Source: Trebouxia sp. TZW2008
Taxonomy: Eukaryota > Chlorophyta > Trebouxiophyceae > Trebouxiales > Trebouxiaceae
Length of the DNA: 64,000 nt
Direction: 5' to 3'
NCBI GenBank assembly: GCA_002118135.1
Contig: BDIU01000016.1
Coordinates: 1 to 64,000, forward strand
Part shown: in pieces, positions 269 to 63,547 of the stretch
Layout: each line of letters opens with the position of its first letter
Position numbering within the stretch: position 1 is the stretch's first letter
Notes under the pieces: generated by a model
Seen by the model: the letters and a program-made list of their open reading frames with translations, nothing else
Told to the model about the DNA's origin: nothing
Database searches by the model: none
Made by a program: the position numbers and the translations under genes

Positions 269-3200
269 TCAAAGCTCTGGAAAAGAGGGATCAGCTTGTT
301 TAGACCATGCAGTCAAGCCACCAACCAGATCTACTGCTGAGGTAATGCCATGCTTGCGAAGCAACTGAACAACATGTTGAGAGTCGTTACCGCGTCTGCA
401 GACCACGACTACATCACCAATGACCGAGCCTGCAGCATCTAATTCTGTATCAGGCTGTGAAGACGCACTTGCTGCATTCTGATGCAACGGGTTCGCCTGC
501 GCATTGCCTTGATCGCAGGTCACAGGAGGACTGCCTTCTTCAAGATCTACAGAATGCTGACTGGGCTCGCCATGAACTGCAGCTGAAGTTGTTCCTTGTT
601 CATCTGCTATGAAAACATTGTTGTGGTGAAGTCCCATAGCCGGCTGATCAGCAGTTCCATTGAGTGTAGCTGAAGTTGTTGACTGCGTGCACTGTTGGAC
701 CATTTCTGCCAGATGGTGCTCAGCTTCATTAAAGGGATAATTCACAGACCCTGCACTGGCGAATCTTGTGTGGGAAGTGTGCACAAATTTGAAGGACAGC
801 ATACAAAGCTGTTGTACTGTTGTATCAGAACAGCAGGCATGAGCACAGCAGTTGTGCTGAGAGGACGTTAAACTCTCAGTGGCAGGTCCTGGGTTCAATT
901 CCCAGATCTATAAACACCGCTTAGTATACTGTGCGGGACCCTGGTGATAACCCAGCCGGTTGATAACATTGGGTTGTCCAGTTGCTACAAACCGGCGCTG
1001 GTCTGGTAACCACTCAGGCTGGCAAGAAATACTTTGCCACCTGCCTTTCATGGGCGGTACCAGGATTGTTGCCAGTGGGCAGTTGATTCTTGAGTGGTCT
1101 TCATCAACGGTGCAGAAAGAGAAAGACAGGGAACAAGGCATGAGTAGCGGTGCCTTGGGTTGCAAATGTGATTGTCCCTGAGGATTGCCTGCTCTATCTT
1201 AGAGCAGGACCAGGACGCTGTGGTCTATCTGCAGTCTCCTTATCACGCCTCACGGCGTAGTCATTTCTCATTTTCTCATTTTCTCATGAGCACAGCAGGG
1301 CACCTGTGTGTCTGCAATCTTGAACTTGCCTAGCAATGCAGTACTTGCATGTCAAGCTGATTGCTAGTCATTCTATTTGATTTGAACACTTTTGACATCA
1401 TCGTCCAACAAATATGACGAGAATTTAGCTTGACGCGCAAGTATTGCAAGGTCTACCCACTGTGATGGCGATTCAAGATATAGTCTGAACGATACTAGAG
1501 TGCATACTTCAGCAGATTTGACAAATAAAGCCTGGCAATTGCACAATTGACACGCACCTGACAAATGTGCAATTTCAAACTCCCGGCGGGGCCTCACATC
1601 AAGCACCAGGGGCTTGGTTTCAGAGCCTTGCAACCTGGCAGCAAAGCTGAGAGCATCCACTCTGCGGCAAAGCAGCACAGCTTTGCGACAAGTGTTGCAG
1701 ATGAATGATAGACATGTCACTCGTCAAAGGTTGTGCACACGTGGGTTCACTGCTATACAGTCTCCCAGACTACGTAGAGATTGAGGGCGAGGCTCACATC
1801 TGCATTGCTATGGGGTGAGCACCAACGCATAGCATTGATCTATCTGCTTCCTGTTTGTGCTAACTCAGAACTCCATTGGCCCATGCATGACACTGGATCA
1901 GCAGCACAACATGGTCGTGCTCATGCAACGCTTGCTTGCATGTACAAGGGTCTGAAGCACCTGAGTTCCAGCAGACACCACTGCAATTTCCATATCCTGA
2001 CAATGCCGGCCTTTGCAGAAATGACCTGACAGTGCTAGCAAAGCATAATGTCAGCACAAAGGGAGAACGGTTGAGAAATCCTGGCCTGGCTATATTGCTC
2101 AGCGCATAAGCACAAAAATGACAGGCACAGTTGTCTCAGCAACTGCAAGGATGGTCATTGTTTTGTAGAGGCTGGTAATGTTGACAAGACAAAAGTTGTT
2201 GCTTAGTCTGGTAACAGCAATATGACAGGGCAGTGATGCCACTGTGGGGATTGGTCTGATAACATCAATATAACAGGGCACTGATGCAACTGCTGGTCAC
2301 ATCAACATGACAGCTTACCGTTGCTCTTCAGGCAATATTTGCAGCTCTGCTGGGCCTGTATCATTGGCTGGCTGGCCTGTGAATTCTGTGTAGCTGTATG
2401 ACGGCAGGGACTGAGCTGTCATGGTTGCATTCTGGCCACAAGCAATACAGTTACTCATCCTGCAAAGGACAGCAGACGCATGTTGAGGGCTAAAAGTACA
2501 ACAGGTGGATTCTAACGGTTGCAAACCAGCCACAGGCGCTTGGAAACTCTGCATCTGCAAAGAAGAATCATCTGCACTGTCGGCACACAAGTTATTGCAT
2601 GTGCCCTCATGGACGACTGCGTTTGCTGACAAGATTTTGATGACTGCCCAGCAGTAACTTCATGAACCTGACCAGAATTCCATTCAATGCCTCATAACAC
2701 AGTCAGCAAGACCACATACACTGTTGACCAGCATTCACCCACCTAAGTCAGGTAAGACTTGTCATGCTGGCATGTTGTGTTGCACATTGCGCTGGCTGTG
2801 TTATGTTTGGGGTCTAGCAAGACATGTTTTGAAAGCACAGCAACTTTGTGTACCTAGCACGCAGCTTGACAGTGTGGAAACGCATAGCCAGCCCGTCAAA
2901 CAGCACCAGCTTCCTGCTGGCTACCTGGCCCACATCACCTAGGATCTTGATAGCTTCCAGGGCCTGTAAGGAGCCTATAATGCCAGGGATGACGCCCAAC
3001 ACGCCAGCATCTGAGCAACGTGAGCAGCTCTCTGCTTGGGGCGCCACAGGGAAAAGGCATCGATAGCACGGCCCTACAGCAAGCACAAAGACTGCAGGAA
3101 AGAACAGAAAAGACAGTGTCTGAGCAACATGAGCAACTCTCTGCTTGAGGCGCCACAGGGAACAGGCAGCGATAGTGTGGCCCAACAGCAAGCACAGTGA

Positions 3201-5267
3201 CTCTATGGCAGACAGCCTGTAATCTTGATAATTGTGACCTGTCAAGATCTTCTTAATGCAAGGGGGTGTTTCTGCTACAACACGCCAGCTTGCTGCACAA
3301 CTTGGCCCAACCTGGTGCCTCTGAGAAGCTTGGACAAACATACCGTCTTGACCACGTTTGTATGCTGTAAGCTGTCCTTCAGTCCCAATGGCTGCTCCTG
3401 ACACCAAGGGCTTACCAGCAACTAGGCAAGGCATAATGGTACAGCGGTGAAAGATGACACCATAACCTGTAAAGCTTTGATATACCGTCTTCACCATGAT
3501 TGTACACTGTCAGCTGTCCTCCAGTCCCGACGGCTGCTTCTGATACCAAGGGCTTACCAGCAACTAGGCAAGTCATAATGGTACAGCAGTGAAATATGAC
3601 AAATGAACGTGTCAAGCTTTGACTTAACGTCTTGACCATGATTGTACACTGTCAGCTGTCCTTCACACCCAATGGCTGCTCCTGCTACCAAGGGCTTACC
3701 ATCAGCTAGGCAAGGCACCATGGTACATCGAGGAAACATGACAACTGATCAATTCAAGCTTTGACATAACGTCTTGACCATGATTGTACACTGTCAGATG
3801 TCCTGCATTCCCGACGCTGCTCCTGAAACCAGAGGCTTGCCAGCATCAAGGCAAGGCATAATGGTACATATATTGGTGAAACATGACAAGTGAACCTCTA
3901 AGGCTTTGACATACCATCATTGTGAGTGTACACTGTCAGCTGCACTTCAGTGGCTGCTTGTGACATCAAGGCTTGCCAGCAAGTACACACGCATCGCTGA
4001 TCAGATACCTGCTGGGTGCATTGTCTGTGCAGTCCAATGCCACATTCAACAAGTCGACTGACTCTGTAGAGCTTTGACAAGCATACCGTCTTCACCGTGA
4101 TTGTACACTGTCAGCTGTCCTTCAGTCCCTATAGCTGCTCCTGATACCAGAGGCCTGCCAGCAACTACACACGCATCGCTGATGAGGTATCTGCTGGGTG
4201 CATTGTCTGTGCAATCCAGCACCACATCATATCGCGAAACCAGCTGAAGCGCATTCTGTGGAGTGAAAGCCTGCTTCTGCACCTCAATCTGCAGCAAAGC
4301 TTGTAGGATCAGCAAGATAGCAGCATGGCAAGGAATGGAAGGACACCGCTGGATGGACAGGCTAGGTACCTGGCGTTGATTCATTTCATTTAAACGTGTG
4401 CTAGACAGGCTCAGCAGGCCCAGCTAGGTATGTACTGGAGCAATCAACTGAACCCACCCAGTCCGTTCCAGTGCTATCCCAAATCAATTGTATTGAGCTT
4501 GACTTGTACTTCGCATGTACCTGAATAATTATGCTGTAAGCTGACTACAGGTCCGCACAGCCCCTTTCAAACAACTAAGCAGCCAGCATGGTTGGGGAGC
4601 TCAGCGAGCAGCATGATCAAGTCAGCTGCGAATGCTGATTGGTCAGCAAAACAGCTTCAGATGGATTTGCTCACTTTGAGAACCATGTTCAGGTGCGCTG
4701 CAGAAGCTGTTCTCACCTTGATTGAGCCATTGAGTGCGCGGCAGGCAGTTGCTGCAGATTCTGCCTTGCGCACCCCAACTCGCGTCTCCGAGTGGATGAT
4801 CTGCCGATGCAGATTATTAAGCTCAACCACATCCTGGTCAACGATGCCGATGCGACCTGCTCCAGCGGCTGTAAGATACAGGGCAGCGGGCGAACCCAAC
4901 CCTCCTGCCCCGATGATCAGCACGGATCCGGCCAGCAACCGCGCCTGCGCTGCATCCCCACTCCGCTTTGAGTTGCAGCAGTTGCAGCCTTTCAGCTAAA
5001 GGCATATGTGATCGCAAGCCACCAACCTTGAAGACCGAATGAGGGCAAGAGCAGCTGACGGCTATAGCGAGAAATCTGCTCTGAAGTTAAAGGATGTGAT
5101 GCAGTTTGCCAGCTACCCTGGCTATGCTGCCGTGCAGGGGTGTCTGCGGGCTGCGCATGTTCTGCAGAGGTCGTAGTTGCTTGCTCAAGTCTGCGTCTAA
5201 GACTATCGTTTTCTTTCCTTAACTTGTCCAGCTCATGCTGAATATTGGACATACTCATTTGCGCCAT
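269..5267 (-). CDS. MOCS3: MOCS3/CNX5/Uba4: adenylyltransferase and sulfurtransferase
   Basis: Two-domain E1-like enzyme. The N-terminal half adenylates the C-terminal Gly of ubiquitin-like sulfur carriers (MOCS2A, Urm1). The C-terminal rhodanese domain then passes on a persulfide, for molybdopterin synthesis and tRNA wobble-uridine thiolation in the cytosol. Exons in gene order: 5267-5027, 4949-4675, 4288-4087, 3073-2854, 2459-2319, 1661-1558, 750-269. Phases agree throughout and give 554 aa. Visible in order: a short coiled coil ([17 protein letters not shown]); the nucleotide-binding [46 protein letters not shown]; the zinc pair CSRC and CIACG; rhodanese [16 protein letters not shown]; and the active-site loop CRRGNDSQ. 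The last exon carries an insertion of about 95 residues between PFNEAEHHL and the active-site loop, not expected in the family. The start follows from the family N-terminus and leaves only 120 bp to the divergent neighbour. Confidence 0.95.
830..1180. repeat. possible tRNA-derived SINE in MOCS3 intron 6
   Basis: At 880-900 a 5-bp stem with a 7-nt TTCAATT loop (CTGGG...CCCAG) has the exact form of a tRNA T arm (box B). A second stem (GAGAG...CTCTC, 867-885 region) precedes it like an anticodon arm, but its loop is too long. The acceptor ends do not pair, so this is not a working tRNA. A non-coding stretch of about 280 bp follows. A decayed SINE is the best reading, with weak support. Confidence 0.3.
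2168..2315. repeat. 37-48-bp degenerate tandem repeat in MOCS3 intron 5
   Basis: The pattern CTGRTAACAKCAATATRACAGG recurs at about 2170, 2208, 2256 and 2293, right beside the exon 5 donor (minus strand). No coding sequence is recognisable in it. Confidence 0.55.
3118..3196 (-). repeat. echo of MOCS3 exon 4 (acceptor side)
   Basis: A copy of the start of exon 4 ([14 protein letters not shown]) with the preceding intron end lies in intron 3, upstream of the real exon (3073-2854). Exon-derived bases are highly similar. The conserved CYRC has become HYRC and the copy ends after about 20 codons. Confidence 0.85.
3339..4050 (-). repeat. array of five donor-side echoes of MOCS3 exon 3
   Basis: Five tandem copies of the 3' part of exon 3 (encoding [22 protein letters not shown]) plus the following donor fill most of intron 3. 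They begin at about 3339, 3484, 3624, 3765 and 3905, so the spacing is close to 141 bp. The copy nearest exon 3 reaches furthest back, to the codons for [13 protein letters not shown]. Some copies retain open frames and GT at the donor; others carry indels. Confidence 0.9.
4381..4450 (-). repeat. 70-bp intron repeat, copy 1
   Basis: On the minus strand it reads TTGATTGCTCCAGTACATAC, then CTAGCTGGGCCTGCTGAGC, then an ATGAAATGA tail. It lies in MOCS3 intron 2 in transcript-sense orientation, about 93 nt before the exon 3 acceptor. Related copies are at 18420, 21549, 22731 and, weakly, 33724. Confidence 0.8.
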
Positions 5268-13480
<8,213 letters not shown>

Positions 13481-13486
13481 ATGACA

Positions 13487-15095: not shown

Positions 15096-18000
15096 ATGGC
15101 GCTTCTGCATCAGAGCGCGCATCGTTTGTGCCACCTGCTTCAGTCCCAAGCACTGCGTGCTGGGTCTTTGCATGTCAGTCAACGACCCTTCTCTGCAGAG
15201 CCTGCACCCTCGCAATCGGATGACAGCTTGACTGTGACCGTGAACCCGTTCAAAGGCCACAGATTAGAACCACCCAGTCGAGATGTGCAGACCAGCAAGC
15301 AGGAACTTCTCGGTATGTTCGAGGTGAGCCTTTTGATTCGCATCCAGCATGCACCACCATTACGCATGGCATGCGCGCAAACACGCCAGCTGTATAAGAC
15401 TGCTTGACGTGTTGTTCCCCTACAGACAATGGTGCGCATGCGACGAACCGAGATTGCAGCTGACCTGCTGTACAAGCAGAAACTAGCACGAGGCTTTCTG
15501 CATCTGGCAGATGGTCAGGAAGCTGTCCCTGTTGGCATCGAGGCAGCCCTAGACTTTAAAGACAGCATGATCCAGAGCTACAGGGATCACTGTACATACT
15601 TGGGGCGTGGCGGGACAGTCAAAGAGCTCTTTGCAGAATTGCTGGTATGATCTTGATTGCATTCAGACCCAGTATGGTCTGCCTCAGGATATCAGGGCGC
15701 TGTGTGGTTGTCATGAATTTCAATTCTGCCTGAGAAATCACAGCTTCAACATTGTCTCATGCTGGGCTGCTCTTGTTTGCAGCTCTGATCGTTGTCACAG
15801 CATGCACCTACCCAATAGTTTGAGTACAGTAAACTCTCCTCATAAAGACTGCTTTGGTTACCAAGAAATTTGTCCTTACATCAAAATGTCCTTACTCAGA
15901 GGGACCACTGCAGTCAGAAAGTAGTGATTGGTTACGAATGCCGTGGTCCTTACATCGAGATTGTCCTTACATTGAGTGTCCTTACAACGAGAGTTTACTG
16001 TACACCCAGAGCATGCATCAATGCAAGCTGCCAGCAAGGCAACGACACCTACACCTTGTTCGCTGTCATCTTTTCAATGCTATGCCAGCATCAGTACTGT
16101 TGAACCATATGCCTGTATAGTTATAGCAGAAGAATGGTGGCTCCGTTGCACATTGCAAGCACCTGACCTGCGCAAGCAGCAGCACTTTAGCCACATACAC
16201 CTATCACTGCTTTGAAACATGTCACAATCAGTAGACATTGTTATCAATGGAGCATGATCAAGAGGGGTCGCATGTGCAAAGGGGCACATCTTCCAACTCC
16301 TGGCTGCAGCTTAACAATTTCAAACCGCATGGAACGCACGTGTATATCACACTTTTATGTTGTATCACTATACTATGTTCTGATACTACACTGCATGTGC
16401 AGGGCAAGAAGGATGGGTGTGCAAGGGGCCTGGGTGGTTCCATGCACATGTACAAGCGTGAGCACAACTTCTTTGGAGGCATTGGTATTGTGGGTGAGCA
16501 ATGCCCCCTTGGAGCCGGATTGGCGTTTGCACACAAATACAGAAATGATGGCCATGTAGCCATGGCACTATATGGTGATGGCGCTGCAAACCAAGGCCAG
16601 CTATATGAGGTGAACACATATGGTTTGTCACCATCACAATGCTACTTGGTTAGTGTGTGATGTGTAATCGCCGTCAGCTTTCAGTGCATTGCTCTAGTTG
16701 CACAGCATGATGTTGCAAGGGCAGTCAGCAACATATGTGGTGATGGGGCTCCAAACAACGGCCAGCTATATGAGGTGGGCACACATGCTTTTGTCATCAT
16801 CATGATACTGCTTGGTTAGTGTGTTATATGCAATGACCATTAGCTTTCAGCGCATCGCTCTAACTGCACAGCATGATGTTGCAAGGTTGGTCAGTAATGT
16901 GTGTGGTGATGGGGCTGCAGACCAAGGTCAGCTATATGAGGTGGGCACAGTTGTTTTGTGTGTAGTGGTGTGTCACGTGCAACACGGCATGTCTTTCATG
17001 CTTCAATATCTGATTTTGACATCAGATGACAGGCCATGTTGCATGCTTGGCTAAGCATTTGCAGATGCTGATGTTCTTTTTCAAAAATGCTTTGTTGTTG
17101 AGGCACATGACAATGGTTTTCTGACAGAATCATGCTTCATTGTATCTCATCTGTACAGTGTAACCCAAGGATTAATGGCATTTCAGTTATGTGCAAGCCA
17201 TTCAGCAAATTGACAAAAAGTGTGACAATACTCACAGGCTTTCATCATTTTGGCCATTTGGGAGGTGCCATGTTTCTTCGTCTACAGAAAAATCACTACG
17301 GCATGGGCACAACAGAAAGGTGGGCATCCAAACCGGTGGCCTTCTACGCAACAGGGATTTATGTTCCTGGCACGTGCAAGCCATTTGTCAATAAGTCAGG
17401 CCTGTGCCAATGCTTACAGGCCTTCAACATGTCAGTTATCTGGGAGCTGCCAGGTATCTTCGAGTGTGAGGACAATCATTACAGCATGGGCACAGCAGAG
17501 AGACGGGGATTCAAATCAGCAGCCTTCTACGCAAGAGGGGAATCTGTCTCTGGCATGTGCAAGCCATCTGTCCAACTAACAAATGCTGTGCCAATGCTTA
17601 CAGGCCTTCAATATGTCGGCAATTTGGGAGCTGCCGTGTATCTTTGTCTGCGAGAACAATCACTATGGCATGGGTACAGCAGAAAGGAGGGCATCTAAGT
17701 CAGCAGCCTTTTACACAAGAGGGGATTACGTTCCCGGCATGTGGGTTGATGGAATGGACTGCTTGGCTGTCAAGCAAGCTGTTGCATTTGCCAAGAAGTT
17801 TGCCCTTGAAAAGGGACCCATTGTACTAGAAATGGTGAGCATTGTCCAAAAATGTTGCACGTGAAATGTCCTTTATTGTTTGATGAGTGTCAAGAGCTGT
17901 TGGGTGATGCTTGGGTGTAACTCCCTTCATGTCAGAATGTCACCAGTCCACAAAGTCGCTGCACCACACAGCTGTGATACAACAGTAAGGGTTAGATAAC

Positions 18001-19266
18001 AGCACATCATAAATCTGTTTACACTTTAAAGCCAGACATGTGACTACAGACTAGTGATTAGGGTAAGCTTTTCCAGCCAGATGTAGCCATGACATGTCTC
18101 TCCCTGTCAGCAGCTATGCACATGCATGCCTGCACCTGACTCTGCATTTTCTGACATGAGCGTTTCGCGAGATTGAAAGGTTTCGGGTTTTCGATTTCTC
18201 TAGGCTTCGATATATGTTTGTCACAAATGCATGCTTGCTACTACATGTGCATCTCCTTACAGCTTGACCTCAAGTGACTCAAGTGCCACAGCTGCATGCT
18301 TTTACTTGCTGTTTTGCCGCGTTATTGAAGTGTAGCACCTGCATGCATGACAACAGCAACCTTGCTGAGACAAAACAGGCCCATTTGTGCGCACCTATTA
18401 GCACAGCTGTTGCAAGACAGCTGATTGCTCCACTACGTACCTAGCTGGGCGTGCTGAGTATGGTTTAGCATGCGTTTTGAAAGCAAATGGAATGCGGGGT
18501 TGCAGGACACGTATAGGTATCACGGGCACAGCATCAGTGATCCTGGGAGCACATACAGAACCAGGGATGAAATCAGCGGAATCAGGAGAGCCAGAGATCC
18601 CATTGAGCATGTCAAGACTCTGCTGACAGAGAACAACTTTGCAGAGGGATCAGACTTGAAGAAAAGGGAGAAGCAGATCAAAAGGGAGGTAAGACAGCTC
18701 AGGCAGCTTGGACAAAACTATTTGCGTTACATTGATGTATGCACCTAACAGCGTCACATCCTTGCTGTATGCACCTAACAGGATGGCATTCATTGCTGCA
18801 TGCACCTAGCAAGATCACCTTGCGAGCAAGCATGTGTATCATGATTTTCATGATTTTCGAGATAACAACATTGGAGAAGGCAGCTAAGCCAGGAGACAGA
18901 TGGATGCAAGCATGGTGCATCATATGCATGTCATGCTCTTGTTTGCAACACCTGCAGAGGTGGGGACCTTTCTGATAGAAATGTTGCTGCAGCAATCAAT
19001 GCCCGGACAGATATGCTTGGTTGCAAACACAACCATAGATGGAGAACAAATATGTACATGCATTAGCCAGCCGACAAGACTAATTGCACTGTATATGAAG
19101 CTGAGAGCGTAATGCTGCTGTGCTGTTGCAGGTTGAAGCTGAAATTGAGGAGGCCAAGAAGAGCGAGTTTCCTCCCATCGAGGATCTATGGAACAACATC
19201 TATGCAGACGGCTTGGGTGCAAAGTTGCGCCCCATAGAAATCAGCAAACCCAAGATTCAGCTGTAG
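15096..19266 (+). CDS. PDHA: pyruvate dehydrogenase E1 component alpha subunit, mitochondrial
   Basis: Thiamine-diphosphate-dependent decarboxylase subunit of the pyruvate dehydrogenase complex, which turns pyruvate into acetyl-CoA in the mitochondrial matrix as an alpha2beta2 tetramer. Exons: 15096-15323, 15426-15644, 16403-16609, 17604-17834, 18506-18688, 19132-19266; all junctions are phase 0, giving 400 aa, the family's normal length. The N-terminus ([20 protein letters not shown]...SQRPFSAE) is a typical Arg/Ser-rich mitochondrial presequence. The thiamine-diphosphate motif spans the exon 3/4 junction: [12 protein letters not shown], then [10 protein letters not shown]. The phosphorylation-loop sequence [20 protein letters not shown] is intact, suggesting control by PDH kinase (family knowledge). 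Introns 3 and 4 are long; intron 3 holds exon echoes from both sides, and intron 2 a MITE. Confidence 0.96.
15825..16002. mobile_element. MITE with TA target-site duplication, copy 1
   Basis: Terminal inverted repeats of about 14 bp (CAGTAAACTCTC... and ...GAGAGTTTACTG) are flanked by TA on both sides. This gives an element of about 174 bp in PDHA intron 2. The interior contains TCCTTACA several times. TA insertion and this size suit a non-autonomous Tc1/mariner or pogo derivative. No transposase is present. A diverged copy lies at 39430-39605. Confidence 0.85.
16690..16960 (+). repeat. two donor-side echoes of PDHA exon 3
   Basis: Copies of the exon 3 end ([13 protein letters not shown] plus donor) lie at about 16733-16790 and 16900-16960, downstream of the real exon end at 16609. 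Spacing is about 165 bp. Both keep GAG|GTGGGC as a possible donor. The copied part is the GDG half of the thiamine-diphosphate motif. Confidence 0.92.
17170..17580 (+). repeat. two acceptor-side echoes of PDHA exon 4
   Basis: Copies of the first 50 or so codons of exon 4 begin at 17239 and 17419; the real exon starts at 17604 (spacing 180-184 bp). Both are open in the same frame across the copied part ([21 protein letters not shown]). Both break off at the same point (VPG/VSG, then intron-like GTGCAAGCC), so neither can replace the whole exon. Confidence 0.92.
18420..18484 (+). repeat. 70-bp intron repeat, copy 2
   Basis: It reads TGATTGCTCCACTACGTAC, CTAGCTGGGCGTGCTGAG and TTTTGAAAG. It lies in PDHA intron 4 in transcript-sense orientation and ends about 21 nt before the exon 5 acceptor (18505). 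Confidence 0.8.
18725..18815. repeat. 37-bp tandem repeat, three copies, PDHA intron 5
   Basis: The unit TGCACCTAACAGCRTCAC with a variable spacer recurs at about 18738, 18770 and 18800, 40-130 nt after the exon 5 donor. It has no coding character. Confidence 0.6.
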
Positions 19267-20070: not shown

Positions 20071-20125
20071 CCAGGCTGCACATTGGTCAACCACATGTAT
20101 AAAAGCGTGCACCGGGTTGCGCTCT
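20071..20125 (+). promoter_or_regulatory. core promoter of the bZIP gene
   Basis: TATAAAAG at 20098-20105 sits 58 nt before the ATG at 20163. An inverted CCAAT box (ATTGG, about 20082-20086) lies just upstream. Spacing suits a transcription start near 20130. Confidence 0.55.
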
Positions 20126-29218: not shown

Positions 29219-29224
29219 TAATTC

Positions 29225-29490
29225 GTGACACAGGCCAAGAGACTGATATTACAAGGCTGCAGCCAGCGGGCATCTTGTGCAAGTGGTGTTTCATGACTGG
29301 GTGCTTGCAGAGCGCCGTTCCAAGGCTGCAGCAGGCTGGCATCTGCGCAAGTGATGTCATATCACTCTGGAGCCTTGGAAACCGCTAATTTAAGCTGCAG
29401 CAGGCGGGCACCTGTGATATCTCTTAGAATTGAGACTGGTTTTCAAGGTTGCAAGGTTGCAGCAGGCGGGCATTTGTGCAACTGGTCTTT
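29225..29490 (+). repeat. four echoes of the CGLD27 terminal exon end
   Basis: The end of the coding sequence (GCTGCAGCAGGCGGGCATTT, then TGCAAGTGA) recurs at about 29258, 29328, 29393 and 29456, spaced 63-72 bp. Here the copied junction is coding end plus 3' flank, not a splice site, so duplication does not require an intron. Confidence 0.88.
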
Positions 29491-29951
29491 GATGACACGT
29501 GTGGTCTTCTTGCTGGAGGATGCGTCAGTGTACACAAGTGAATGAATTGTCTTTACTGGAAGATGAAGAGAGAAACTGCTATGCTATTGGGTGCTTTTTG
29601 TTGTTTTTATTATTCATTTCAAAAATACTGGAGAAGCTGCCTTGGCTAAGACGTGATGTTGTGTTGACAGGATGTTTGGTTTTGTTGCAAACGTCGTGAT
29701 TGATTGCACCTGTCTTGCATTCGCTACGAGGGCATTTGAGAAGCCGCTGTGGCAATTTGTAGGTAACGCCATGCCGTAACGCCAGGTCTTCCCTGACTCC
29801 CAAGAAAGCCGGTGTTGCACCCGTTGTTCGCACATTGTGCATGATATGGTGGTAACAGTGCGCGTTTATTGAAAACTATCGATAGAAGGCGTGCAGCGAA
29901 TGCAATCTTGGTACACAGAGGTCTCGGCTGCCAGATCACTGTCGATCAAAC
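29491..29951. promoter_or_regulatory. intergenic, upstream of the RBR ligase gene
   Basis: About 460 bp without a recognisable gene. It should contain the CGLD27 3' UTR and the ligase promoter. No TATA box or known motif stands out. Confidence 0.35.
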
Positions 29952-44900: not shown

Positions 44901-47900
44901 ACAGTCTTTTGCATGCTCAAACAGGACCGTAAAGCTTGGTTTGATACACCTGTTTACGTCTGCAGAAGACTGATTGCAAAGGTTGCAAGGCGTTACACAT
45001 TGTGTTGGGCTGCACACAAAATGTCTCATGCTTGTATCATGTGCAAAGTACACTGCGGTGCATTCACTCAACCTCAGCCGTCAGCTCAATCCACAGAGTT
45101 GCTGGCATCAGCTTGTTAGCTGGTGATTGCCGACATACAGTGACACCTATGGTGGTAGACACCTATGTTCTGATAAGACCAGGACGTCAGGTAACAGGAA
45201 TGCCCATTACAAGAGCCATGCAAATGGGAGATGAGCGCTGCGTGTTGACTGCAGCAGTTCTGTTGAATCATTAACATTGATGCAAGTGCAGTGTTCCTGG
45301 AATGCAGTCATCTTGAAATGCAGTCATTACATCAAGAAATCATCGCAGAAAAGATAGGCTGTATATACCATCAATCAACTGATAGACCTCACATGTTTGT
45401 GGCATGCAGGTGTCCCAGTCCTCAGTGTAGCGGAGCTATAGCTTTCCAGCCAAGAAATGCAGACCCTAAAAGCAGCATGGCAGAGGCAATTGCTGCAGGG
45501 CGTGCAGTGGATGTGGTGTGCTGCTGTGGACAAGCCTTCTGCTTTGCATGCTCAGCCAATGCACATGAACCAGCCACTTGTCAGCAGGTGTGGACTGCAA
45601 CCCTTGCATGCTGGATCGCGTCACAAGAATTTTGATTGTCAACAAGGGTTGCCTGTTTTGCCTGCTTTGCATGCTCGGCAGGTGCCCATGAACCAGCCAC
45701 ATGTCAGCAGGTATGCTTTGCGGCTTCAGCCTGCTGGATTGTGTCAAGAGCACTTACAATGTGAGCAAAGGTCTTTCTGCCTTGCTGTAGACAGGCCTTC
45801 TGCTTTGCATGCTCAGCGGTTGTCCATAAACCAGCCACTTGTCAGCAGTTACGCTTGCCTTATCAGCAGAATCATCTCTCTTCACTAACGTTTGCCTGTC
45901 TCACTGTGGGCAAGCCTTCTGCTTTGCCTGCTCAGCTGGTGGAAATGAACCAGCCACATGTCGGCAGGTATGCTATAAAGCCTTTGGCTGATGAAACATG
46001 CCAAGATTACAATCACTGGTAGCAAAGGTCTTCCTGCCTTGCTGTGGCCACTTTGCTACCAGTAATGCTACGTGGGCAAGAGTTCTGCTTGGAACAGTCA
46101 TGATATGACTGTCAAGAGCTTTCATGGCAAGATAGACTGCCTATTGCTCCCCATGCTAGCAAGGACTCAGTAGAGAACAGTGTCACTTACTTTGTGGCAA
46201 GCTTTTGTGTGCCAGTAAGGTTTGATGTGCAGGATAGCGTTTGTTGAAGCATTTGTGTGCTCTTGAACAAGCTGCTCACAGCAGATGAATCACTTGGCTG
46301 GACCACTCTTGTGTTCATGGCCTGCACACAGGGGCTGTCCAGCTGTGTGGGTCAACTGCTGTTCACAGTGGCTTGGTCAGAGCACACAGATGCATCAATA
46401 CACCATACATCAGCACATGCTGAAATGCTTGCATAAGCCCATTACACTGCTTCTCATTACATTGCACTCCCTATGGCTGCATGACCATCTAGCTATGAGA
46501 AGCCACGTGCTGTGCACAATGGCTTGGTCAGAGCACACAGATGCATCAACACACCGTACATCAGCACATGTCGGCATGCTTGCATGATGTGACGACATTG
46601 CTCTGCATCATATTGCACTGCTTATGGCAGCTTCAGGTGCTGTTGTTTGCAGTCAGTACGGGCTGTTGTTATGGCAGTTCTGTGTGCCTGGTATTGCATG
46701 CAATGTTATTGCCCCACCTATTCTGTAACAAGCAGCTCGATACATCTGGTCACAGTCAATGAACGCTCTCAAAGCTCACACCCAATGCATTCGGCCGTTA
46801 GTGTTGTTATTGATGCCTGCAGGCTGAGCAGTGGACTGGTATTTTGGCCAAGATGCGGCAAGAAGACAAGGAGTCAGCTCAGCAGTGGGTGACCCACCAC
46901 ACTCAGCCGTGTCCCGGCTGTGGCAGCCGGATTCAGAAGAACGGCGGGTGCAACCACATGTCCTGCTCCGTCTGTCGTCGCCAATTCTGCTGGGTAAGCT
47001 GCTGTCCTGTGGCAATTCGAATCAAGCATGTCAGTTCATCATATGCCACACCCACATCCCCCCCCCCTCCCCGCTGCAATTATCTGTAGCAGCTGCATCA
47101 AACAGAATGGCAAGAGCAACCACATGTCCTGTTCTGTCTGTTTCTGCCAGTTCTGCTGGGTAAGCTGCTGTCCTGTGACGACTTGAATCAGTTCATGTCA
47201 ATTGATCATATGCCACCCCCCATCCCTGCCCTGCTCCATCCCCCTGTAGCAGCCGCATTCAGAAGAACGGTGGGTGCTACCACATCTCCTGCTCTGTTTG
47301 TCGTCGCCAGTTCTGCTGGGTAAGCTGCTGTGCCATTGCTCGCCTCACTCAAATAATTAAAGATGATCATGCATGTGCGCCCCATGCACCCTCCCCCCAC
47401 CCTCCTGCCCCAGCCCCTTCCGGCCTGATGCATCCCCCTGTGGCAGCTGCTATCAGATGAGCGGGGGGTGCAGTCACATGTCCCGCTCCCTGTGTTGCCG
47501 CCAGTTCTGCTGGGTAAGCTCTTGTAATGTACGCATGTGGACCGTTCACAAACGTGATGTCAGTTGAAGTCAACTGATCATGTTCTGCCCTACTGCCCCA
47601 ACCCCCTCCACCCCTCTGCTGTTGCCCTGTGCTGCACCTACCTCAGCTCAGTTCAAGTGAGTGCACCTATGCAATTGGCGGGTGCAACCATGTGTCCTTC
47701 TCTGTCTTGCGCCGTCAGTTGCACTGAGTAAGCTCTTGTAGTGCGGAACCTTCACTCATTTCAGTTGAGGTCATTTGAACACGTCTTCACACCGTCCCAA
47801 CCCCTCTACCCGTCTGCTGACGCCCCTGCTGAGGTGCAACCATGTGTCCTGCTCTGTATGCTGTCTACTTGAGAAGCTGCTGTACTTTGTTTACTTGACC

Positions 47901-50900: not shown

Positions 50901-50994
50901 AATGGATGAAAGCGCTGCTGATCTGTGGCACCCCTACAATCTTCTGGACTCACTTTTTTAGAGACCAGCACAAACACTCACAAGACTCTCAGCA

Positions 50995-51027
<33 letters not shown>

Positions 51028-54067: not shown

Positions 54068-54374
54068 ACGCTTGGAAGGCCCCTTCGTCATCTGTGTGAC
54101 ATGTGACACGTGTGTTCCTGTGTGACATGTATTATCTGTGTTCCAAGCAGGCCTCTACAGGGGCTCTGACAATCCGGGGGTTGCCCACACTATGTGTGCA
54201 GGTTTGCGGGGGTTGCAACTCAGTTTGTGTGGGCTGGACTAGTAATGTACTGGTACTGAGGCAAATTTGTGTGGGGTGCCCGGTTTTGGGTGCCCACCCC
54301 TCCCCCCCCGCCCTTCCCCTCCAGAGGAAGCAGGGGGTGTAAAGGCCTGGTTCCAAGTGTCAGCGGCCTGCTCT

Positions 54375-55834: not shown

Positions 55835-58800
55835 CTAGATGTACAGCACTTCATCCCAAGGGTGCCTGTAAAGTGGTTGCTGCAATCTTTTCTGATCAAG
55901 GGCGTGCCCAATGAGCCCTATGCTTCTTGCCAGCACAAACAGCCCATTCAGGTAACCAATCTTGACTATGTCGGCAATTTCTGCCTGCGACATAGACAGC
56001 ATAACATGTCATTTGAGGAAGCTTCAGGGTGAGACTATGTTAAGGAGACTACCAATGACGCATGAACGCGTCAGGTGAGCAGCAACAGAGGTGAATCTGC
56101 AAGCGTGCTGTGCTGAGCTCAAGACCTCATCCAAAGTTTTCAGGTGCTAGTGGACATTGGGTTGCACAAAATGCAGAATTGCATGTGAGTAGGCAATGAA
56201 TAGTATTGTATGGTGCAAAAGGCTATGACATAGCAGTCAGTATGCAAGACGAAGCAGAAGTCAACAATGGCATGCATTCAGCAAGCAATACAATCCGGAG
56301 GTCTTGCAATGAAAGCTTATCTAGCAAAACTCTACGTCGAGTGAGCAAAGGAGTTACCTCTGTAAACAAGGAAGAAGAGTGCAGCAGGTCCAGGAACAAG
56401 GTTCCTATACAGCCATCTACATTCATGACTAGGTTGGCCGCCTTTTGGAGAGTGTAGGTCTCCACTTGCAGCGCGTAGTTGAGATACTTGGTGCTGGGGA
56501 AGAATTTGAAGGCATACTTTTGCAAAAGCTCAACCCGCTTATCACGGTTGTCCTGCATACAAAGTACAAACTTTCAGGTATGTCTGTGAAAAGACAGTAC
56601 AAGCACAGTATTGCAAAAGCTCAAGTTGCTGATCACGGTTGTGCTGCATACAAAGCATCAAGTTTGAGCTTGTTATGGCTCAAACAAGACCATACAAGCT
56701 CATACTGCTTAAGATGTTTGTCCTGCACACAAGGTATTTTGCTGAGGTATGTGATGGTGAAAACACCAAACAAACACATTTTGCAAAAGCTTGACCTGCT
56801 TACGATGGTTGTCCTACACACAGTACACAATATTTGAAGTGTGCAGCAAAAAGTGCACTATACAAAAGGCTGCACAGAAATAGTAGCGATGCAGAACAAA
56901 CAATCCTGCATAAGTCAACATTGCATTCACACAAAATGTCTGATGAATAAAGCCAAAAACAGGCTGCACCATGAGACACCTGGAGTCCCTTCAGCTTCAA
57001 TCAGCAACAAATATATTTCTCAAAGGCTGGCGTATACAATGTCTTGTTGTACAGGCTTACAAGACAGTAGTGCAGTTTGTTGAAGACAGTTGTGGCTTTT
57101 GCCAATGTCTCTGCTATCCATGTAGGAACGCTGTGGAAACCACACTTTCAGTTGTGCTTGTACAACACAAAGCTTGCAGGTGATGCGGCATAGCCGCAAT
57201 ATGCTCACCTTGCTCTTTATCCTATGTCCTATTCCTGGGACTCTGATACCTTTTCTTTTCATGTCCTCTACAAACTCGTCAGGTTCCAATCCTGCAATCA
57301 AAGAATTAAGCATGTAACTCTGCTCTGAAATCTGCACTTGCCTGATCAGGTGGCCTACTTGTAACAGTGTTACGTTCAAGCTTCAGAAAATATCACAATT
57401 TTATTCAAGTTTGGACGTTTGGCCACGTAGAAAAGTGGTCAGACCTTGAGTTTGGGTCCTGTCTATGAAATAGTCATGGGTTTGAAGCCGATGTGTCAAA
57501 ATGTTTGAGAAGCTATGGTTTGCCATGCCTACGCTTATGTATTGCTTGAAGGACAGCCCATCAGGGGCAAAATGTCGTTGATACAGCGCTGCACATGCTG
57601 GTAAAGAAAGCAAGGAGGAGGAGGAGATCTTCAAATGCTTCAGCCAGATGACAAGTGTGATTGCATGCGCCATAAAATGGCAATCAAAGCATGTCCGTCA
57701 AGTTCAATTCAATGTAAAAAGGCCAGGAGCAAGCAAAATCTCAAATTACAGCTGACTGCCCACCAATCTTGAGATTTCCTGGTAGCTTCCAGCACACAAC
57801 AAAAGTCACAGGCAGCATTTACAGCCATTCAAACATCTGAAACAGGAAGAGGCATGCCTGTTACCTACCTTTGGGTTGCCTGGGCACAGGTATCGATCAA
57901 TCAATCAAACAGAAATCTGTACTGATGATGTCAACTCATGCACGGGGAAGGGGATGGAGAGAATGAGGGAAGGGAGGGGGTGGGAAGGAGGGGGCGGGGT
58001 CCTACCTCTATCACATGCATCTCTGAAGTATCTGGCAGAGTCATCTACAGCGCCTCCAAATCTGGGCCCAATGGTGAGTAAGCCGCTGACTAAGCATGAC
58101 ACAAGGTCTTTGCCAGCTCGCGCTGTCACAATGGTGTTGTGCGCCCCTGCATGCACAACAGTCACAAGATGAGTGCAATGTCAATGTTTGATCAGGTTTT
58201 AACACACGCAACCAGACTTGTTGGCTGGCCAAAGCGTGTAATTTCTGTCTCTGTTTCAAGCAAACTGCCTAGGCGCTAGATCGTTTGCGCTAAGGTGTGC
58301 TTCTTGACAATGGCTGTCAGAGTAGGAAAACATGGCGTTGTGCTTTCTGGGCAGCAATGAAGAAGTGCATCTCCCTGACCCTAACTCTCAAGTACTTGCA
58401 GATATTGTATACTTTAGTGAGTATCACACAAGTGTAGTACATGTACACTGACCTGAGACACAGGGCCTGTGGTCAGCACACAGCATAATCACAAGCTGAA
58501 CAAAAGGTGACCAGACCATGCAGCAAAGCAAGATGTGAGGGGGGCACACAGCAAAGCAATACGGCTGACCTGAAACACAGGGCCCATGGTCAGCGCACAG
58601 CATGACCACAAGCTCAATGAAGCGTGATTAGACCAAAACATACAGCAAAGCAAGGTATAAGGAGAGCACACAGCAAAGCAATACGGCTGACCTGAAACAC
58701 AGGACTCATGGTCAGCGCATAGCATGACCATGTATACAGACTCATGGCAAGGGGATCACACAGCAAAAGAGCGTCACCCAAGAAAAGCTTGCGCAGATAC

Positions 58801-61800
58801 GTAGAGAAGGTTTAAGAGCAAGATGACTGACCTGAAACACAAGGGCCATGGTCAGCACACAGCATAACCTACAGCTCGTGTGGCATCAAGTGCATCTGTA
58901 CAAAATTCAGATGACTTCCTTGTCAACAACAACGCACAAGAAACAATTCATAGTGCGTCAGGAAGCAAGTTTGCTGACCTGAGACACATGGCCCATGATC
59001 AGCGCACAACATAAGCACAAGCTCAATGAAGCGTGTGGCGTATTTGGGCAACTGCCGCTTGAACCACAGCAGCGAAATGACATCCCCCACATTGTAGTCG
59101 CCTGTGATGAGCGTCGACATGGTGACCTTGTTGTAAGTTGGCTCTTCGCCCCTGTCATCACAGATTGATGATACAATAGTGGTTGGTACCCGCACCTGTG
59201 CAGACACAACAGACAATTGCTAAAACGCATTGTGGTTGCCCGTGATGAGCATTGACATGCTTGTTGCAAGTAGGCTATTTATCTCTGTCATCACAGATGG
59301 ATGACGCAATGGTGAATGGTACTCGCACCTGTGCAGACATCACTCTTGTTACAAGGGCTGGGTTCAAGTGGTCAACAAGCAGACATGATGGCTCACGGCT
59401 TGCCTGATGAAATGCATTGCTGCTGTGACAATGCTTCTGCAACCAACGACCTGTTGAATTGCTATCCATCACCTCAAGCCCTTGGCTAAAAGGCTGATTT
59501 CCTATGAAGCCCCGTGAATCCCATTTCCAACGTAAAGCTGCTAAGACGCAGAGCAGTAGTGTCTTCAGATGCGATCAGCCATGCTGTCTAAGCAGAAAGT
59601 TTGATGCTGACATGCTTGGGACGTGCTTGGCGCCATTCAAAGCCTTGGAACAGCCAGACCTTACTTTCATGTACATTCCTTGCATGCTTGAGCATTGTGA
59701 CTGCGGCTGGCAAACAGTTACGGCATTGTAAACAGTATCAATGACAAGCCATGTCAAAGCCTTGTTGAGATTCTTATTGACACGACGTGTTGCCTCAACT
59801 GCTTAAGAGGCTGATGGTGATGACTATTGCATGCTCACCTTGCCCGCCTTCTTGGCAGCTTCCAGGTCCTGAGGCACAGACTTGACTTCAGATTCCGGCT
59901 GGGGCTGTATCGTGCCCTCTTGCACCAAGTCGTCATATGTCTGCTTTATAATTCCCTCAAAGCCCTCAAAGGAATCTGGCACGATGGCTCCTGCTGCTTT
60001 CAGGGCTGCGTTCTTGTCCTGAAGCAAAAATGCAGCAGGTCAAAAGATTGATGACAGGAAGGCATCAAGAAAAAGAGGAAACAGGGTGTTCAGACAGAAA
60101 GAATGACTGCAACAAGGATCGATGCTGAGACAAGGACAAATTCAATTGCAACAGGGGCATAGCAAGACTCTTCTGCCACAATGGCGCCATCGCACCAAGA
60201 CAAGAAGGAGACTGACTGCAATAGGGGCTCAAAGAAGACCAGGACGCTTCTGCTGACCCAGGCCGCAACAGGTTTGGTGATCTTTTAGATTTGCCATGAC
60301 AGATTGCCTCAAACATATGTCACAGCAAATGTGGCAACTACCCAAGCAGACTCAGACGCACCACCAATCTTAGCCCCAGCATGGTCAGCAACATTTGTTT
60401 GCAAAGAAGCTGCAGTAATTCAACTGCATGTTACATCAGACTACAGCAGTCACCCAAGCAAGACAAGTCATGACGCAGTGGCCCAGAGGCATGTCACATC
60501 AACCTGAGGCCATCACCTGTGCAGATTCAGACGCACCACCACTCTTAGCTCCAGCATGTCCAAACTGCACCTCAGACTTGAACAGCTTAGCGCAGGTGCC
60601 GCTAACCCACGCCACAACAGGCTTTGTGATCTTGTTGGACTTGAGCGCATCTACTAGGCTGTATTCATCGTGCCCTCCAAGCTCACCCAGGACCACTATG
60701 AGCTTGATGTTGGGGATGTTCTGGTAGCGTAAGCAGTGGTCTGAAAGGGTGCTGCCAGGAAAGACATCTCCTCCGATTGCAATGCCTGCACAGCAGATAA
60801 TTATGTTTCTACAATGTGCATCAAACACTCACATCCTGATCAGCAAGGAAATGAGTTTGATATCTGGGATATTTTTGAAGCGCAAGCAGTGGTCTGAAAG
60901 AGTGCTGCCAGGAAACACATCTCCTCCAATTGCAATGCCTACGAAGCAAAAGGAGTTCTGTTACTGTAATGTCAAGCCAGGCCACAACAGGTTTGGTGGT
61001 CCTTTTAGAGTTGAGCGTTTCTACTAGGCTGTACTTGTGGTGTCCGCCAAGCTCACCCAGGACCAAAATAAGTTTGATGTTGGAACCTTTTGGCAGCGCA
61101 GACACTGATCTGAAAGGGTGTTGCCTGGAAATACGTCTCCTCCAATTGCGATGCCTGCACAATCACATTGGCTTTGTGTCGAACCACTTATGCCAGGGAA
61201 GTGGCTGAGCATGCATGGTATCTGTGATCTTCAGATGACGCAGCTAGTGATCTGACAGTACGCTGCTGGGCAACACATCTCCTCTAAATGCAATGCCTGA
61301 AGAGGTACAGCGTTCCTCACCTCAGTTGCACACTCACATACTAAAAATGGACATGGCTTTGAGGTGTGTCAGCTCTAATATGCAGAGAAGCTGCAGTGAG
61401 ATTGCCTGGCAAACCCCATTACACTGTTGTGCATGACAAGCCACAAAGCGACAAGCCATTAAAACATGTTGTCGGTTGGCCCACATGTGTAGACATGCAT
61501 AGACGAGTCATGCAATCACCATTTGGCTCGTTGAGATGCAGCGACAACATAGTGGCATTGACTGGCATGATGCAATAACACCATCATTGGAGAAAAGCAG
61601 TTTGTCCTGACCTTCGTACAACCCATTTGCGGCCCTTGACAGCACAGTGTACATGCCATTGGACATGCCACCAGATTTGGCGACAATTAGAGTACACAAA
61701 CATCACAATACAAAAGAAGTCAATTGCACTGACCTTCATACAGCCCATTTGTGGCCCTTGACAGCACATTGTACATTTCATTGGACATGCCGCCAGACTT

Positions 61801-63547
61801 TGAGACAAAGCCAACAGACCCTGGTCTGTACAGCTTGCACGCCACAATGTTCTCCAAAGTGCCTGCTGTGTCTCCTATCCGGAATGCCCCAGCCTGCATG
61901 CAAATTGACTGTAAGACACAACAAAAGTCTGCATGGGCATGAGACATGTACTTGACTTGGATATGTATGCATTCACTCAATGGTTTCAATGTTCTCCAGA
62001 ATGCCTGCTGTGCCTCCTATCCGGAATGCCCCAGCCTGCACATCTTTTTGACTGTAAGGGGCAGCAAGGGCATGTACTGGCTTAAGGCCTGTACTTCATT
62101 TGGATCTGTTTGAGTTTGTTCAACAGCCACATCAAAAAGGCAATAAAGTACTTGGTGTCACCTTCAGGCACAACTTCTGCAATGACTGCAATGGTGCAAA
62201 TGGAAGCTTGCATGAGTGGGGTTTGAGCGCTGATGTGAAATGACACTGGAATATGGTGTGTATCTGGAGCCCTCTCACTGTTGCTGGTTCCACAGACAAC
62301 TTGCACGAGTGGATTTCCAGATCAAGTGTGTAGCTAGGCTGGCATAAATTGCAAGTTGCATGAGTAAATTCAGATCTGGTGTGTAAGCATGCTAGGGTAG
62401 GTTGTGTACCTGAAGCCCTCCCACTGTTGCTGGTCCCAGCACAATCTTATTGTGCTTGGCCGCATAGGCAATGAGCTGCTTGGTGTCACCTTCAGGGACA
62501 CCTTCTGCAATGACTGCAATGGTGCGTATGGAAGCTTGCTGAAGTGCTTCCATGGATGACTCATATGCGCTGCATCATCAATGACAGGGGCTCAGATGCT
62601 AGCAATGCATGCAGGCAAGGTAGACAGCCTTAGTCATGCAGGATTGTGTGCATCATCTGCTACAAACAACATGATGAGACAAGTTCAAACATGTTGCAAA
62701 TGACTTGATGCTGCACTTGCAATGCTTGAACGAAAGGACCTGTTTGGGTTGAGGCCATGTTTCAGGCAAAAATTCACATTCCAGGCCAAGCCAGTGGTTT
62801 GCAGTAGTTTCAGGTCACAATGGAATGCCAACATGCAAGCTGTTGCAACAGACAGCCGTGCAGTTTCAATCTGCAATAGCTGGGTGAATTTGACCTATCA
62901 TGCACTGGCTTTTGCAGGCATGTGGTGCAGACTGAACAACTGATATGCCACAGGATCCTGCTGCCTACCTCCTGAAAGAGGCAAAGTTGATGAACACATC
63001 TGCACCTCTGTGAGCCTTGACAGCTGCTGGTGTGCTGCATGCCAAACATGCCCGTCACTCAAAGCAGCAGATTGTATTTTGCGGCCATGCAAATCATCAA
63101 CTATGGCCACTGTACTACTGCGGCAGATCAATGCGCCAACATGACTCCAAGCGTTGAGATGGAAACACTATAGTCTCACCTGCCGTAAACAGGAATGGCA
63201 ATTTCTTCTGATCCAAAAAACAGCTTTTGAAAGCCACCAGACGAGCCAGGTTGTACGATGCAAGCTACCGAAGGTGTGCTTCGACCTGCAGATTACCCAA
63301 GCATGTGGCTGCGTGCACAACTCCGACAGGCAAATACACAACTATGTATCTGAGCCGTTTCGGCTTGATGCCGCTCTGCAGATTGGCACTGCAACCCCTG
63401 ATCTATCGCCGTGCATCGCGTGACCTGCACGAGCAGGTGCTCACCGCACAGATAGTCGAAGTCGAGCATTCGCTGAATAGATTTCTGCTTCCAATTGTAG
63501 AAGACCGCCTGCGTGTCCGAGCTGAAGATCTGTCCATGTTTCACCAT
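55835..63547 (-). CDS. ACLB: ATP-citrate lyase subunit B
   Basis: Cytosolic enzyme cleaving citrate with CoA and ATP to acetyl-CoA and oxaloacetate, feeding lipid and sterol synthesis. In plants and green algae it is a complex of separate A and B subunits; this is B. Exons in gene order: 63547-63445, 63285-63180, 63034-62969, 62569-62410, 61893-61734, 60785-60517, 60018-59839, 59195-58979, 58146-58006, 57291-57209, 56552-56358, 55984-55835; phases agree, 609 aa, as in plants. Seen: [76 protein letters not shown] with the phosphohistidine; then the citrate-synthase-like part [57 protein letters not shown] and the end [11 protein letters not shown] partner A-subunit gene is not in the window. 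Introns 4-8 and 10 carry exon echoes. Confidence 0.96.
56575..56835 (-). repeat. three acceptor-side echoes of ACLB exon 11
   Basis: Copies of the exon 11 start and its acceptor (minus strand TGTATGCAGGACAACCGTGA, VELLQK) lie at about 56609-56660, 56690-56740 and 56778-56830; the real exon starts at 56552. Spacing is 75-95 bp. Confidence 0.8.
58435..58880 (-). repeat. four donor-side echoes of ACLB exon 8
   Basis: Copies of the exon 8 end ([16 protein letters not shown] plus donor) lie at about 58824-58868, 58682-58735, 58560-58615 and 58440-58495, after the real exon end at 58979 in gene order. Spacing is 120-145 bp. The copied segment is the family's conserved CoA/citrate-site motif. Several copies keep CAG|GTCAGC. 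Confidence 0.92.
59220..59345 (-). repeat. acceptor-side echo of ACLB exon 8
   Basis: A copy of the exon 8 start ([15 protein letters not shown] versus [15 protein letters not shown]) with its acceptor lies about 137 bp before the real exon in gene order. The copy gains a stop after DDRDK. Confidence 0.9.
60235..60400 (-). repeat. donor-side echo of ACLB exon 6
   Basis: A diverged copy of the exon 6 end (the HAGAKSGG and KPVVAWV parts are traceable) lies at 60240-60400, after the real exon end at 60517 in gene order. Confidence 0.7.
60850..61300 (-). repeat. three acceptor-side echoes of ACLB exon 6
   Basis: Copies of the exon 6 start ([20 protein letters not shown]) lie at about 60852-60945, 60974-61156 and 61230-61297; the real exon starts at 60785. 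The middle copy is long, running through VLGELGG and KPVVAW. Spacing is 140-215 bp. Confidence 0.9.
61605..62045 (-). repeat. ACLB exon 5 echoes on both sides
   Basis: A donor-side copy ([22 protein letters not shown]) lies at 61611-61695, 123 bp beyond the real exon end (61734). An acceptor-side copy ([20 protein letters not shown]) lies at 61990-62040, about 145 bp before the real start (61893). The exon itself (61734-61893) lies between them. Confidence 0.9.
62100..62300 (-). repeat. donor-side echoes of ACLB exon 4
   Basis: Segments matching [15 protein letters not shown] (62150-62215) and the exon end with its donor (62260-62300) follow the real exon end (62410) in gene order. Confidence 0.8.

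Follow-up and report, generated by a model that had tools for sequence, protein, structure and literature searches.

Junction-crossing tandem duplications have lengthened many introns in a Trebouxia-type green alga

Local tandem duplications crossing exon-intron junctions have stretched many introns of this Trebouxia-type green alga (a lichen alga), and decaying look-alikes of exon edges, here called echoes, remain in them. The window, a 64,000-nucleotide stretch of nuclear DNA, contains 72 partial exon copies, spread over all six named genes (MOCS3, KARI, PDHA, CGLD27, RBR and ACLB; names checked with Pfam). These were detected with 36 exons of the six genes as queries, overlapping matches being merged; the borders of RBR, CGLD27 and some KARI and MOCS3 exons are approximate, and without the last exon of CGLD27 the total is 68. 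As the ab initio gene finder chained exons too freely and took echoes for exons, it was used for exon candidates only. The arrays, by gene, are as follows.

3119 to 3202, minus strand: MOCS3 acceptor-side copy; matches 3010-3093, adjoins exon 2854-3031 and faces the donor array (the exon search detects only 22 bp).
3338 to 4094, minus strand: MOCS3 array of five donor echoes, each copied from the end of exon 4096-4288; the first spacing is 175 and the next four are 142.
6714 to 7232, plus strand: KARI, exon 7233-~7373 with three acceptor echoes, spaced 166/166/167; decoy TGCAG|GCAA sites intact.
8612 to 9271, plus strand: KARI, five acceptor echoes of exon 9272-9459, the nearest four spaced 89, 137, 131 and 136.
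9533 to 9729, plus strand: KARI, end of exon 9272-9459 copied twice on the donor side.
10003 to 10475, plus strand: KARI, exon 10476-10755 with three acceptor echoes; one is only 27 bp, and the two larger are spaced 173/168.
10933 to 11145, plus strand: KARI, two acceptor echoes of exon 11248-11364.
11642 to 11702, plus strand: KARI donor echo of exon 11248-11364.
11869 to 11967, plus strand: KARI acceptor echo of exon 12074-12322.
16734 to 16959, plus strand: PDHA, end of exon 16403-16609 echoed twice on the donor side, spaced 165/166; decoy GAG|GTGGGC intact.
17189 to 17603, plus strand: PDHA, exon 17604-17834 with two acceptor echoes, spaced 182/184, opposite the donor echoes.
29160 to 29498, plus strand: CGLD27 3' flank; the end of the last exon (~29025-29218) occurs in four copies, at distances of ~67, 137, 206 and 267.
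36923 to 41839, plus strand: RBR, 16 copies lying upstream of exon ~41840-42018, of which 12 hold the exon start and 4 are internal; some are inverted.
41426 to 41947, plus strand: RBR 167-bp array, part of the 16-copy group.
47084 to 47860, plus strand: RBR, IBR exon (end at ~46986) copied five times on the donor side; the first spacings are ~166.
58447 to 58730, minus strand: ACLB donor echoes with a period of ~117-122, copied from the exon that ends at 58979.
59228 to 59339, minus strand: ACLB acceptor echo of the exon ending at 58979.
60293 (internal) and 60383 (22 bp), minus strand: ACLB downstream copies of exon 60537-60785.
60849 to 61298, minus strand: ACLB, three acceptor echoes of exon 60537-60785.
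Within 61988 to 62292, minus strand: ACLB, one acceptor echo of exon 61734-61893.
Within 61988 to 62292, minus strand: ACLB, exon 62410-62569 copied twice: one copy is a 29-bp exon end, the other is internal and nearer the exon start.

By class, 37 copies lie upstream of their exon and hold its start and 29 lie downstream and hold its end, while four upstream and two downstream copies are internal. None of the 72 is a whole-exon or wrong-sided copy by class, the exception to sidedness being one 'internal' downstream ACLB copy (~62136-62243) whose protein-level alignment is with its exon's start. Copy length is at least 30 bp in 59 cases, the other 13 being shorter and weaker. The initial annotation, made from the same letters, correctly placed partial copies in all six genes, with acceptor-side units upstream and donor-side units downstream, and we agree that such one-sided truncation follows logically from tandem duplication across a junction; its estimate of about 80 to 90 copies was higher than the present count. 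Merging of matches and the approximate RBR exons bear on the comparison of these two numbers. The exon search returned 0, 0 and 0 matches in three block-shuffled windows, and five in the opposite-strand control, every one from a single RBR exon. Local direct pairs numbered 337 in 315,871 bp, compared with 0, 0 and 0 after shuffling in 500-base blocks and with 14 inverted pairs.

Copies are adjacent and head to tail with a near-constant period, as revealed both by TRF and by junction spacings such as 166/166/167, 142 four times over, 165/166 and 182/184. In most cases the duplication takes in the intronic part of the unit as well, and the echoes are therefore tandem duplications across junctions. 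This part was homologous in 15 of 21 reference events from outside the window (P ≤ 0.05; six not significant; event L031 5124 was kept in this set) and, within the window, in every one of the 31 unit pairs from six arrays (z 1.9 to 15.3, the exon lengths of the units being set by eye). The first MOCS3 copy and the outermost copy of the KARI fifth exon are irregular and were excluded from the analyses of unit homology, codon position and mutation spectrum. At the reference loci, the matched tract often ends within about 25 bp past the junction, and the intronic part is narrower in acceptor units (36 to 123, median 50) than in donor units (24 to 172, median 80.5; P = 0.02).

The reference set comprised 68 homology-defined introns at 18 of 21 loci of the same genome. 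Profile matches entering these loci were 63/63, 42/54 and 23/28, the remainder lying in other contigs, and junctions were placed only between neighbouring matches with contiguous profile positions (eight such pairs gave none). Echoes were present in 17 introns, on the donor side in 12/68 and on the acceptor side in 9/68. Median length was 683 in echo-bearing introns and 302.5 in array-free introns; once arrays were subtracted, the echo-bearing median fell to 326, comparable to that of array-free introns of at least 200 nt (337.5; P = 0.96), although the agreement is weaker when all array-free introns are compared (P = 0.14). Of the intron bases in this 68-intron sample, about 19% belong to recognisable arrays. 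Tandem duplication thus offers a simple, quantified and transposon-free route to longer introns.

Differences between real exon and echo by codon position were 0.118/0.117/0.240 at the reference loci and 0.143/0.114/0.304 in the window. Coding constraint on the echoes was rejected on these values, which fit a near-neutrally decaying echo beside a constrained exon. Differences between echoes retain a third-position excess (0.196/0.179/0.262), which is unexpected under pure neutrality after one origin; copies of different ages could produce it. The mutation spectrum between copies is ordinary (Ts/Tv 1.38, CpG rate 0.30), and with only 88 of 238 changes being C>T or G>A, RIP-like mutation was rejected. 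Best pairs of 140 arrays differ by about 3 to 28%, and a pair at least 93% identical is found in only four of them. This scarcity of young duplications hints at a past wave, and the mutation process seems to have slowed.

Decoy splice sites are mostly intact, with AG kept in 23/26 acceptor echoes and GT in 15/19 donor echoes. The test covered 46 echoes, including 25 of the 72 window copies; L031 5124, which mapped to the real site, was left out. Observed retention lies near the neutral expectation of 0.78 and 0.76, and seven decoys are at least as strong as the real site. The splicing machinery nevertheless seems to ignore the echoes. For PDHA, the one gene with transcript-like evidence from the same species, P0001, a protein encoded by a transcript-sized contig, is identical to the echo-free model over 400/400 residues, and the P0001 contigs are no longer than 1,610 nt compared with a PDHA gene span of 4.2 kb. 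When the model's first exon was fixed and 16403-16609 was joined, P0001 was already known; junction 16609|17604 had been predicted earlier, the gene finder having called an exon end at 16609 and an exon start at 17604, with false exons between. Near-perfect decoys can sit 70 to 350 bp from real splice sites in housekeeping genes, and splice-site choice becomes testable with RNA-seq.

The pattern is probably best explained by random local tandem duplication combined with selection and with the longer visibility of exon-derived copies. Head-to-tail duplications, mostly of 60 to 280 bp per unit, would have arisen all over the nuclear genome, with no necessary link between their positions and splice sites. 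Selection presumably removed those wholly within exons or spanning entire exons, while those within introns or over one junction may have been tolerated, since splicing at the last acceptor and the first donor, which lie nearest the exon, would still yield a normal mRNA. Such use would look like pairing of splice sites across the exon. The surplus exon fragment would then turn into intron, decay neutrally and lengthen it. As the real exon stays conserved, junction-crossing copies would remain visible after intronic copies have faded, and the phenomenon would therefore appear restricted to junctions.

Alternatively, duplication may be truly anchored at junctions, for example because exon edges attract breaks or template switches, or through the shared TGCAG and CAG|GT motifs; this is unlikely. 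Tracts tend to stop near the junction, the intronic part of acceptor-side units is narrow, which uniform placement does not obviously predict, and intron-intron arrays independent of any echo are few (5/68 reference introns, two of them reaching 13 to 16 bp into an exon). By eye, the introns of the window likewise contribute many arrays at junctions and few that are purely intronic. However, intron-only arrays do occur, the intronic part is mostly duplicated along with the exon edge, and geometry alone favours junctions. When duplications of the observed unit lengths (70 to 227 bp) were simulated at random positions in 48 array-free exon-intron-exon templates, those entirely exonic or spanning a whole exon being discarded, about 60% of events crossed a junction (423:277, 362:238 and 239:161). 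Simulated ratios of junction to intronic flags ran from 1.2 to 10, depending on the assumed intron decay rate, and bracket the 21:8 observed in reference introns (21:5 once intronic matches within junction arrays are removed). Faster intron decay can cover the remainder, since exon-derived copies stay recognisable longer when one partner is held by selection. An age-matched simulation with mild indels predicts longer tracts than observed, and only faster intron decay nears the short tracts (2/4 runs, with settings chosen after the data were seen). A modest junction preference is possible. The initial annotation therefore holds for intron growth by repeated local tandem duplication and for the many decoy sites left behind; its anchoring at splice junctions is not upheld, nor is its restriction of the copies to junctions, given the independent intron-intron arrays and an array at 34294-35405 of the window outside any confirmed gene model.

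It is very improbable that echoes are functional, as alternative or poison exons or as decoys that tune splicing. The intact AG and GT sites are compatible with this, but their retention is near neutral, the codon-position differences carry no coding constraint on the echo, and echoes are absent from the PDHA transcript-sized sequence.

Slightly less credible still is the Rogers model, in which introns are born from tandem duplication of exonic AGGT segments and hence are built of exon sequence. In the available text of two reports, the mechanism is known in single genes (PMC2891723, PMC4974935), and many junctions here read AG|GT. Such an intron should open with a duplicate of the start of the downstream exon and close with one of the end of the upstream exon, but here acceptor echoes lie 70 to 346 bp from the real exon in introns of 340 to 1068 bp, with intronic sequence between. 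Intronic sequence also adjoins the echo within units, and residual intron length resembles that of array-free introns. Echo position and the duplicated intronic parts rule out introns made entirely of exon sequence.

Introner elements make up a large share of intron sequence in some algae, and the present arrays share this large contribution to introns, but each derives from its own exon. Least probable of all is an assembly error or a dispersed introner-like element: the structure is repetitive and some RBR copies are inverted, but the divergence of best pairs means that the arrays are not simple misassembled duplicates, direct pairs far outnumber inverted ones, and the one array searched genome-wide matched at least 15 places, with 15/15 of those listed in its own locus and no dispersed family for that array.

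A bolder reading is tentative and rather less than even in likelihood: a past, largely ended wave of tandem duplication, perhaps from a transient mutator state, swept the genome and lengthened about a quarter of the introns, and it survived because splice sites pair across the exon in this alga. If so, the arrays would be a genome-wide natural experiment in which intact decoys, some outscoring real sites, are ignored by position alone; exon versus intron definition would be testable in a unicellular alga, and datable duplications would be available for studying an apparently slowed mutation process.

The arrays are a variation on known local tandem duplication, set apart by being multi-copy, crossing junctions and occurring in many introns of one genome. 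In a potato RdRp gene, according to the available part of the report (PMC4974935), coding or intron-exon sequence was likewise duplicated locally in tandem, with one copy of each site spliced. There the duplicated piece is an intron-exon structure, whereas here units span a junction that already exists, the surplus exon sequence is turned into intron, and existing introns are lengthened, many of them in one genome. In Drosophila, 5 of 31 new intron positions are attributed to tandem duplication by splice motifs with one copy intronised, as far as the accessible text goes (PMC2891723); here, multi-copy arrays with decoys lengthen introns. Minisatellites and intronic tandem repeats share head-to-tail copies, varying copy number and neutral decay, but the present units often comprise an exon edge plus splice site, and a quarter of reference introns (17/68) carry junction arrays. 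A literature search found no report of such arrays in Trebouxia in the available portions of its sources, which included PMC12712428, PMC6652019 and the two reports above; in the accessible main text of the A48 genome paper (PMC12712428) the word 'tandem' occurs 0 times. For gene predictors the echoes are a warning, as the exon calls of the ab initio finder illustrate.

Searching 36 exons against the window (C16:1-64000, in an assembly of 68.5 Mb in 527 contigs) recovered 72 partial copies in the six genes for which the initial annotation had claimed them, while the same exons gave no match in three block-shuffled windows. Pfam searches found in these genes the domains ThiF (MOCS3-like), KARI, E1_dh (PDHA), CGLD27, IBR (RBR) and Ligase_CoA with Citrate_synt (ACLB); the top KARI matches and the top named ACLB matches come from Trebouxia spp., lichen green algae. 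Thirty-seven copies lie upstream and hold the exon start (acceptor echoes), 29 lie downstream and hold the exon end (donor echoes), and the rest are internal (4 upstream, 2 downstream); 13 are shorter than 30 bp. The claimed one-sidedness stands by class, with no wrong-sided copy among the 72, but at the protein level the internal downstream ACLB copy at ~62136-62243 matches the start of its exon. Both kinds of echo share an intron in MOCS3 (intron 3), KARI and ACLB, as had been claimed, and also in PDHA (intron 16610-17603).

If a duplicated unit spans a junction, its intronic part must recur too. In gapped alignment it was homologous in all 31 unit pairs from six window arrays and in 15 of 21 events in reference introns at p ≤ 0.05. 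Real exon and echo differ to about the same extent at the first and second codon positions and roughly twice as much at the third, the pattern expected of an unconstrained echo beside an exon whose changes are largely silent. Differences between echoes are flatter, with a persisting third-position excess (0.196/0.179/0.262) for which copies of different ages would account. The mutation spectrum among copies is ordinary.

Echoes are not confined to the window. Together with 21 gene loci and 8 loci chosen without regard to genes, it holds 337 local direct pairs within 315,871 bp, arrays making up 18.8% of the sequence; after shuffling, the same sequence held none. Of 140 local arrays, 128 have a top-pair period of 60-279. 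Even a profile search picked up echoes: a real HSP70 exon covers profile positions 131-205, and two upstream matches cover only 131-168 and 132-167. Reference exons were located by Pfam searches of the genome itself, blind to arrays, and 68 introns across 18 loci yielded junctions (consensus CAG|GTRNGC at the donor, TGCAG|GT at the acceptor). Donor echoes occur in 12 of these introns, acceptor echoes in 9 and both in 4; 8 have an intron-intron pair and 48 have nothing. Intron-intron pairs independent of echoes occur in 5 of the 68, two extending 13-16 bp into an exon.

Introns grow by this route, as the initial annotation had proposed. Median length in the reference set was 683 in echo-bearing and 302.5 in array-free introns; with displaced copies subtracted, the echo-bearing median fell to 326. 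Array-free introns no shorter than 200 nt have a median of 337.5 (P = 0.96), and comparison with the whole array-free set gives P = 0.14. Recognised arrays account for ~19% of intron bases in the 68-intron sample.

Anchoring of duplication at splice junctions, also proposed there, is not required. Duplications of observed unit lengths were placed at random on 48 array-free introns and their exons, and exon-breaking events were removed; ~60% of the survivors crossed a junction. Once these had decayed and been passed through the detection used on the real introns, flagged arrays stood at a junction:intronic ratio of 1.3-1.4, or of 1.2-1.8 where ages bracketed those of the echoes; four further runs, in which intron decay was indel-rich or faster, gave 1.6, 1.8, 7.4 and 10.3. 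The observed ratio, from arrays of several copies where simulated ones had two, is 21:8, or 21:5 if only independent intron-intron arrays are counted. Short matched tracts were best approached by the fast-decay runs, whose settings were picked after the data had been seen. There may be a modest junction preference. In units drawn from the reference introns and the window, the intronic part measures 36-123 nt (median 50, n = 13) where the unit crosses an acceptor and 24-172 nt (median 80.5, n = 14) where it crosses a donor (P = 0.02); keeping branch point and acceptor together would fix just the lower limit of the acceptor-unit width.

Decoy splice sites are indeed left behind. Among 45 echoes (one self-mapped row excluded), 23 of 26 acceptor echoes retain the AG (neutral expectation 0.78) and 15 of 19 donor echoes the GT (0.76), giving no sign of purging; decoys equal or outscore the real site in 7/26 and 10/19, respectively. 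Use of the inner site pair, closest to the exon, would yield a normal protein. This outcome is seen in P0001, the top PDHA match, whose coding contigs do not exceed 1,610 nt; we read it as a spliced transcript from the same species or one nearly identical. The six-exon PDHA model (15096-19266) is identical to it at 400/400 residues, two exons having been adjusted once P0001 was known; the echo-skipping sites 16609 and 17604 came from an earlier prediction that also placed false exons between them. The simplest interpretation is exon definition, given one transcript-sized sequence and the survival of the genes. The published ACLB prediction of Trebouxia sp. A1-2 (P0258) has 555 residues against 583-609 in other Trebouxia sequences; its missing stretches may reflect mis-annotation of a gene that in the window carries arrays.

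Best-pair identity in the 140 arrays (window and 29 loci) peaks at 81-86% and reaches 97.1%, with a pair of at least 93% in only 4. If duplications arose at a constant rate, young copies should be no rarer than old ones, so a past wave of duplication is the natural reading; alternatively, near-identical repeats may have been collapsed in assembly. TRF arrays with at least 93% matches number 12/27 at period 20-50 and 2/24 at period 100-200.

Passages of earlier reports (PMC2891723, PMC4974935) describe introns arising by tandem duplication in single genes. Here a quarter of the sampled introns have been lengthened by junction-crossing duplications, with ranks of decoys apparently ignored; the portions of the literature searched described no genome with introns so stretched and rows of decoys.

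Self-comparison of the window gave 151 direct pairs, mostly less than 1 kb apart, and 28 inverted pairs. A dispersed short repeat (~70-110 bp, 78-85% identical), present in both orientations, differs from the local echoes:
4379-4492, dispersed short repeat
18414-18489, the same repeat
21549-21642, the same repeat
22683-22793, the same repeat

The five exon matches on the opposite strand all involve RBR exon 41840-42018. Inverted copies accompany direct ones in the RBR region (36923-41889), and of the whole sample's 14 local inverted pairs, 12 fall inside the window. The array at 37413-39262 has about ten units of period ~172, the double period of ~345 being stronger. Another, at 30677-31155 inside a gene model downstream of CGLD27, shows distances of 121, 244 and 365 and at most 93% identity. 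A perfect 44-bp tandem duplication at 48-135 is a case of young short-period duplication.
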